A stretch of DNA of 45,565 nucleotides. It comes from Limisphaerales bacterium (GTDB lineage: Bacteria > Verrucomicrobiota > Verrucomicrobiia > Limisphaerales > UBA11358). The notes below the pieces were generated by a model that was given only the letters and a program-made list of their open reading frames with translations, was not told where the DNA came from and did no database searches. This document shows positions 23,538-23,998 of this stretch, in pieces; the first letter of the stretch is position 1, and each line of letters starts with the position of its first letter. The DNA lies in NCBI GenBank assembly GCA_025362675.1, contig JANYFN010000165.1, forward strand, positions 1 to 45,565, written 5' to 3'. The translations under genes and the position numbers were made by a program.

Positions 23538-23541
<4 letters not shown>

Positions 23542-23954
23542 ACCACGGAGACACAGAGGCACAGAGACAGAGGCTGAATCAATTGAGTCAGCAGGTGATT
23601 GGTTTGTGTATTGAGGTGCATCGCGTGCTTGGGCCAGGGTTGTTGGAATCAGCTTACGAAGCTGCCCTGGCTTATGAATTGGCAACCGCAGGCATTCCAT
23701 TTCAGAAGCAGATTGATCTGCCGCTTGATTATAAGGGTGTGAAGCTCGACTGCGGTTATCGTCTGGATTTCATCATCGCCGAAGATTTGATTTTAGAACT
23801 CAAAGCCGTTCAAGAAATTCTGCCGGTGCATAAAGCGCAGCTATTGACCTATCTAAAGCTGAATCAGAAGCCGCTCGGTCTTTTGATAAATTTCAATGTC
23901 CCTTTGCTCAAAGACGGCGTCCAGCGCGTCGTCATCGGCGAAACCTTTAGATGA
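23538..23954 (+). CDS. GxxExxY protein (PD-(D/E)XK-like), cassette cargo
   Basis: 138 residues. The ATG overlaps the RuBisCO-like stop (ATGA). The family signature GLLESAYE (GxxExxY) is present, with GYRLDFIIAEDLILELKA, which resembles the D...ExK core of PD-(D/E)XK nucleases. Function is unknown for the family. The first ten residues ([10 protein letters not shown]) are a translation of the cassette end itself, so the native start may be MRLNQ-like further in or the element's own end. The gene is carried by a 456-bp unit with inverted ends (separate entry) and interrupts a metabolic operon. Upstream translation can enter through the ATGA overlap. Confidence 0.85.
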
Positions 23955-23998
23955 ACCGCATCAAATCCATCTCTGTGCCTCTGTGCCTCTGCGGTTCA
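23539..23998. mobile_element. candidate mobile cassette with inverted ends carrying GxxExxY gene
   Basis: The left end (23541-23567, AACCACGGAGACACAGAGGC...) and right end (23970-23996) are inverted copies, 24 of 27 matching, extending two bases on each side. Between them lies little but the GxxExxY ORF. I see no transposase and no clear target-site duplication. It sits between two genes expected to be adjacent, the RuBisCO-like protein and its kinase. Confidence 0.7.

Follow-up and report, generated by a model that had tools for sequence, protein, structure and literature searches.

The 45,565-nucleotide (nt) contig JANYFN010000165.1 of a Limisphaerales bacterium (Verrucomicrobiota; assembly GCA_025362675.1), hereafter the window, carries a small gene for a GxxExxY protein enclosed by two inverted ends, each built from three short iterons. 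This unit is best explained as a palindromic element with iteron ends, in the form that carries a gene. That the element is or was mobile we regard as highly probable, and nearly as firm is the proposal that its ends are the sites read by the protein encoded between them. We give an even chance to the wider view that it represents a class of small mobile elements, not described before, in which the encoded protein reads the ends of its own element, following a logic like that of repetitive extragenic palindromes (REPs) and their RAYT proteins without being a member of that system. An earlier note on this DNA had taken the locus for a small mobile unit, and this is now well supported by empty sites in related genomes, by dispersed gene-less copies, and by a 72%-identical relative that has near-identical ends in a different gene neighborhood.

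A repeat search recovered the arms (23539-23567 and 23970-23998) as an inverted pair of 29 nt, 90% complementary and 402 nt apart, so that the inverted ends, previously given as 27 bases with 24 matching, are real. Each arm consists of three 7-bp iterons of the CACRGAG type with a period of 8. The left end, on the plus strand, begins with the outer letters TGAAC and continues with CACGGAG-CACAGAG-CACAGAG (iterons at 23544-23550, 23552-23558, and 23560-23566); the right end, inverted and thus on the minus strand, reads CGCAGAG-CACAGAG-CACAGAG (iterons at 23987-23993, 23979-23985, and 23971-23977). When the whole window was scanned for inverted heptamer triplets, the pair at this locus had a penalty of 2, compared with 7 for the best of 40 Markov shuffles. 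The GxxExxY gene itself (23538..23954, plus strand) encodes 138 amino acids. As the earlier note had read, the left arm holds the stop codon of an upstream RuBisCO-like gene (TGA, 23539-23541), which overlaps the GxxExxY ATG (23538-23540), and it also provides the codons for the 10 N-terminal residues of the GxxExxY protein. Rfam matches in 23300-25000 were all far below gathering scores.

The genes on either side of the unit resemble OiaX and OiaK of isoapionate catabolism, although both fall under the curated model cut-offs. For the upstream host gene (22225..23541, plus strand, start codon uncertain), the nearest NCBIfam model is OiaX (516.6 bits against a cut-off of 700), and for the downstream host gene (24010..25380, plus strand) it is the 3-oxo-isoapionate kinase OiaK (421.3 bits against 700). 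The upstream gene was present in 11 same-genus genomes besides the window's own (59 genomes searched). Empty sites, which the earlier note had proposed to look for, were found in 8 of the 10 same-genus genomes with a readable junction between the upstream gene and the kinase gene; the stop and start codons overlap in five of the eight and are 2 to 3 nt apart in three. The window's unit has therefore inserted between two closely packed genes, and its left end recreates an ATGA overlap of stop and start codons, this time joining the upstream gene to GxxExxY. No target-site duplication was found, there being no consistent direct repeat at the edge in 90 loci (best identity, 30%, versus a background of 24%). 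Two plasmid searches gave no usable empty site for the exact insertion boundaries, and with flanks only ~84 to 87% identical in the nearest relative read, these boundaries were not obtainable from near-identical records. Two of the same-genus loci (L243 and L245) have a different insert at the junction, separating the genes by 115 and 95 nt. By eye, this insert is a palindrome with period-7 words (AACATTC...) whose first bases make the upstream stop, and the junction is thus a shared insertion spot for two kinds of element.

Whether such ends might be rare at GxxExxY genes had been raised as a point that would tell against a mobile unit. They proved not to be rare: inverted triplets (7-mers, period 8 to 10, penalty of 8 or less) were present at 128 of 168 GxxExxY loci from ~15 phyla, whereas among 70 control open reading frames (ORFs) and 88 distant flank pairs the same model at the same threshold found one each. 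In a further set from the same genus, 18 of 21 loci had such triplets. Ungapped inverted flank matching at a score of at least 11 picked out 77 of 91 phylum loci (mispaired flanks, 7%; direct orientation, 20 of 91) and 60 of 76 loci in a cross-phylum set (mispaired, 22%; direct, 21 of 76) that by record title includes Planctomycetes, Acidobacteria, Chloroflexi, Cyanobacteria, Bacteroidetes, and Proteobacteria. These thresholds were exploratory and set after looking, and many of the loci are related and so are not independent trials. In the GxxExxY set, the mispaired null grows at loose thresholds, from 23.5% at penalty 6 to 38% at penalty 8, because iteron types are common to several loci; the control-ORF and distant-flank comparisons are free of this problem. 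The second GxxExxY gene of the home genome has ends of another type, CGCAAAG.

What the ends conserve points to a protein reader. In the 106 loci whose arms are equally spaced, left and right ends differ at 7.8% of iteron positions versus 51% of spacer positions, and the iteron sequence, while varying from locus to locus, agrees across the two ends of one locus. A stem kept for pairing would be expected to show low mismatch in iterons and spacers alike. Homogenization of the arms by hairpin copying is likewise disfavored because the spacers would have been copied too, yet they differ. Since iterons agree between ends and spacers do not, the iterons look like protein-read sites and not like a paired stem. 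In 55 of 77 loci of the CRCNNAG type, letter 2 is identical across all six iterons (7.5% expected from pooled letters), a pattern that fits selection on all six sites by a single reader. Both ends also have in common about five outer positions (WTTNAC), which are probably the edge of the element.

Broad iteron type also tracks the GxxExxY tree. On a tree of 123 protein cores, from which the end-encoded residues were excluded, iteron type changes 15 times versus 37 when shuffled; the protein is short, and few branches of this tree are well supported. One side of the tree has CACGAAA/CACGAAT-like and ACAGGAT iterons, and the other is nearly all CRCNNAG. Inside the CRCNNAG clade, letter switches hardly differ from the means of tree shuffles (17 versus 21, 20 versus 22, and 15 versus 21, with shuffle minima of 16, 19, and 18), so that co-evolution is not supported at this fine scale but only for the broad types.

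The S23 four-helix-bundle (4HB) family (PF05635), which is small and multicopy in the same genomes (140 of 194 genomes searched, often with several copies), was chosen as a negative control. The PF05635 loci examined (L247-L276, L280-L319, and L350-L379) have inverted iteron triplets with a period of exactly 7, at 47 of 68 phylum loci with a penalty of 6 or less (mispaired, 19%) and at 19 of 24 loci from genomes of the cross-phylum set. At a penalty of 6 or less, period-7 triplets occur at 0 of 168 GxxExxY loci, period 8 to 10 triplets occur at 4 of 68 and 3 of 24 S23 loci, and either model finds 0 of 70 control ORFs; the two models are unmatched in stringency, one using heptamers with three allowed periods and the other using hexamers with one. 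The periods of GxxExxY (8 to 10) and S23 (7) thus form a double dissociation, and period is a property of the protein family. This speaks for ends that are matched to the protein rather than to a shared mover. The same dissociation disfavors a further idea that we had considered, in which generic ends enclose arbitrary cargo. Calling the unit a cassette with cargo, as was done before, undersells it: with many ends lacking a gene and another protein family having ends of a different period, GxxExxY looks cognate to its ends.

Copies of the ends without the gene, another search suggested earlier, are dispersed in genomes, including the home genome, where about twenty short gene-less elements (19 counted, ~40 to 120 bp) and single arrays have the same kinds of arm. 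Several of these elements stand directly behind stop codons, and the copies read are mostly intergenic. PF13366, the Pfam family of the GxxExxY protein, is present in 104 of the 194 genomes searched from the phylum, often in several copies. At least three exact arrays of the three test types were found in 39 of the 194, and 37 of these 39 carry PF13366; in this comparison the gene's own ends count as arrays, and genome size and ancestry are uncorrected. Further CACGAAA arrays were found in all seven genomes with a fetched CACGAAA-type gene versus 18 of 187 others, and further ACAGGAT arrays were found in 5 of 8 genomes with a fetched ACAGGAT-type gene versus 14 of 186 others (the 7 ACAGGAT matches in G083 reduce to one lone site and a tandem run). 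Gene flanks were read in 15 gene-positive genomes, chosen mostly for high array counts, and in three of them the genes read have ends of the dominant array type, namely, G086 (both genes), G163, and G125 (one clear arm). In G084, the match to the dominant type comes only via arrays flanking two unfetched genes, as judged by coordinates.

The encoded protein matches PF13366 (PDDEXK_3; E = 2.6e-41, 141.1 bits, cut-off 22) and TIGR04256 (GxxExxY; E = 1.9e-43, 147.6 bits, cut-off 35). D77, E87, and K89 are invariant in 32 of 32 aligned proteins, as is the whole D...ExK...QxxxY core, and the AlphaFold model (pLDDT 95) has a PD-(D/E)XK fold that is supported by fold matches. The model and the alignment thus mark the GxxExxY protein as a PD-(D/E)XK nuclease with predicted activity. 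In agreement with the earlier note, no transposase is present: no transposase family matches the encoded protein in a profile search, where PF13366 is the sole match. A search of PDB sequences gave no useful match. The Fe-S site of Cas4 is carried by cysteines; set against the Cas4, lambda exonuclease, and Hjc folds, the 32 aligned GxxExxY proteins have no invariant cysteines, and no Cas4-type Fe-S site is therefore apparent. A defense or phage gene is unsupported, as tblastn at E 1e-5 found nothing among 50,697 phage records, plasmid records matching GxxExxY numbered 7 of 72,556, and no defense or phage model matched convincingly (best PADLOC E = 0.0083; best PHROGs E = 0.12). The nearest named relatives are titled Verrucomicrobia. 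GxxExxY genes read within one genome are mostly well diverged (56 pairs: 85%, 72%, 65%, and lower), from which the gene itself does not appear to burst. In many genomes of the phylum and genus, several GxxExxY genes that have diverged from one another coexist, and those read differ in iteron type within one genome. In Sphingomonas parapaucimobilis (L279, NZ_CP155749.1), a GxxExxY gene with CGCGAAG-type ends lies between fabD and fabG in a fatty-acid synthesis cluster.

We propose that the three inverted iterons at each end would be sequence-specific sites read by the GxxExxY protein encoded between them, a step for which the case is strong. The protein would act both on the ends of its own element and, in trans, on elements that have the same iterons but no gene, and it may cut or process the ends, perhaps as extruded or single-stranded hairpins. 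New copies would thereby appear at other sites, some directly after stop codons, with no duplication of the target. That the nuclease itself does the moving is the most tentative part of this scheme, and we lean somewhat against it. The earlier suggestion that the cargo might mobilize its own ends, still hypothetical, fits both the invariant D...ExK...QxxxY core and the way in which iteron type agrees with the protein tree; against it stand several array-rich genomes whose resident genes have ends of another type.

A number of observations weigh against this proposal. Triplets were absent at the threshold used from 40 of 168 GxxExxY loci, and part of the correlation between ends and protein tree would arise from linked inheritance alone. 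A sister genome, G255, has a 96%-identical GxxExxY gene at the same place as the window, and because this insertion is common to both, movement at this site was not very recent. The S23 proteins are not nucleases and yet have analogous ends, so that nuclease catalysis cannot be the mechanism common to both families. In four genomes, all the listed genes were read without revealing convincing ends of the dominant type at any of them (G136, with 49 CACRGAG arrays; G088, with 22; G191, with 8 CACGAAA; and G059, with 2 ACAGGAT). In seven more (G004, G130, G101, G192, G015, G129, and G156), one to two genes of 4 to 13 rows were read and none clearly matches, and three genomes have arrays but no intact PF13366 (G142, 15 arrays; G071, 5; G115, 2). 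Such a picture would be expected if elements outlive their gene, but also if the mover is not GxxExxY. The array-rich genomes with mismatched genes lowered our estimate for the nuclease as mover from an even chance to rather less, and that for the reading as a whole from slightly better than even to even.

Movement by another factor, such as a RAYT-like enzyme, a recombinase, or replication or repair acting on hairpins, would reduce the GxxExxY and 4HB proteins to accessory site-readers or passengers. The analogous ends of 4HB genes, which are not a nuclease family, favor such a mover, as do the other end type of resident GxxExxY genes in several array-rich genomes, the lack of a target-site duplication, and the presence in the same window of a GTAG-like REP hairpin, a kind tied to RAYTs in the portion of PMC3733652 considered. 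However, period goes with the protein family and broad iteron type with position in the GxxExxY tree, so that a shared mover would need to recognize ends that vary with its passenger; we consider this explanation unlikely, though a serious contender. The arrays might instead be sites of a chromosome-organizing or regulatory protein, GxxExxY or other, in which case the pair around the gene would be autoregulatory and the copies would have spread otherwise. Very similar paired triplets in Geobacter metallireducens are predicted to be sites of a global regulator (PMC2700814, in the part considered), and the home-genome copies read lie mostly between genes. A regulator leaves unexplained why the gene sits inside one inverted pair at most loci, why the gene-plus-ends unit is absent at orthologous sites, and why the protein has an intact nuclease core; we rate it as distinctly unlikely.

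A role of the arms in RNA has a certain appeal, since joined by a four-base linker they fold at -48 kcal/mol; a transcribed stem would isolate or protect the inserted gene in the operon transcript, like the intervening sequences of 23S rRNA. S23 proteins belong to such intervening sequences inserted in 23S rRNA and, in Pfam, are called after them. Still, spacers mismatch at 51% against 7.8% for iterons, so pairing is not what is conserved; this disfavors an RNA stem as the conserved feature and makes the RNA explanation very improbable. We give hardly any credence to chance or selection bias, by which repeats common in these genomes were found at loci picked by score. Exploratory thresholds, the relatedness of the loci, and direct-orientation flank matches (score of at least 11) at 20 of 91 and 21 of 76 loci speak for it, but control ORFs and distant flank pairs gave 1 of 70 and 1 of 88 at the same threshold as the GxxExxY loci, and GxxExxY sets from different searches agree.

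For an element whose protein reads its own ends, REP/RAYT logic (PMC3733652, as far as considered) is our main comparison. As in REPtrons and TIRtrons, short palindromes are dispersed, inverted copies of the repeat stand on either side of the gene, gene-less copies outnumber genes in the home genome (about twenty against two), and gene and repeat are statistically associated by genome. Unlike RAYTs, GxxExxY is by family and fold a PD-(D/E)XK protein and not an HUH/Y1 enzyme, and its ends are three 7-bp iterons of period 8 to 10 instead of a hairpin with a GTAG tag. No GTAG tag was found at gene flanks, where the window has TGAAC plus iterons and other loci have WTTNAC plus iterons. Short gene-less inverted-repeat elements beside a gene-bearing form also recall the miniature inverted-repeat transposable elements of classical insertion sequences, but here there is no transposase match and no target-site duplication, and the ends are made of iterons with variable spacers. 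The class 2 sites of Geobacter metallireducens consist of three tandem repeats of TCTCCGTS[Y] in opposite-strand pairs at variable distance, with IHF/HU guessed as the binding protein (PMC2700814, in part). Their DNA design is the same as that of the CACGGAG arms, TCTCCGTS[Y] being the complement of CACGGAGA; the text considered treats them as possible IHF/HU sites and draws no link to GxxExxY or to mobility. S23 loci share with GxxExxY a small protein gene between inverted ends and differ in protein family and iteron period. In word searches that left preprints and most subscription papers outside, no paper was found that ties GxxExxY or PF13366 to repeats, and word searches for what GxxExxY proteins do found next to nothing.

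Just short of an even chance, in our view, is the broader possibility that prokaryotes harbor a superfamily of mobile elements, so far undescribed, whose small non-transposase proteins (the GxxExxY nuclease and, separately, S23) read inverted iteron triplets of a family-fixed period (8 to 10 or 7 bp) and, acting in trans, disperse gene-less palindromes through genomes of many phyla. If each family reads its own dispersed repeats, GxxExxY and S23 proteins would gain a role and a class of intergenic palindromes would be explained. The elements would then also constitute very small sequence-specific DNA-processing units whose specificity is legible from the flanking iterons.

The window contains two further palindromic features. 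The triplet scan found a gene-less element at 7471..7611 (no strand assigned) with inverted CGCAGAT-type triplets (7509-7569), apparently nested in a CACAGAT-type inverted pair, the outer pair having been recognized by eye. At 24779-24851, within the kinase reading frame, a GTAG-tagged palindrome, GTAGCAGCCGACGTGAGTCGGC, with an inverted copy at 24830-24851, has the appearance of a REP-like hairpin inserted in the gene.
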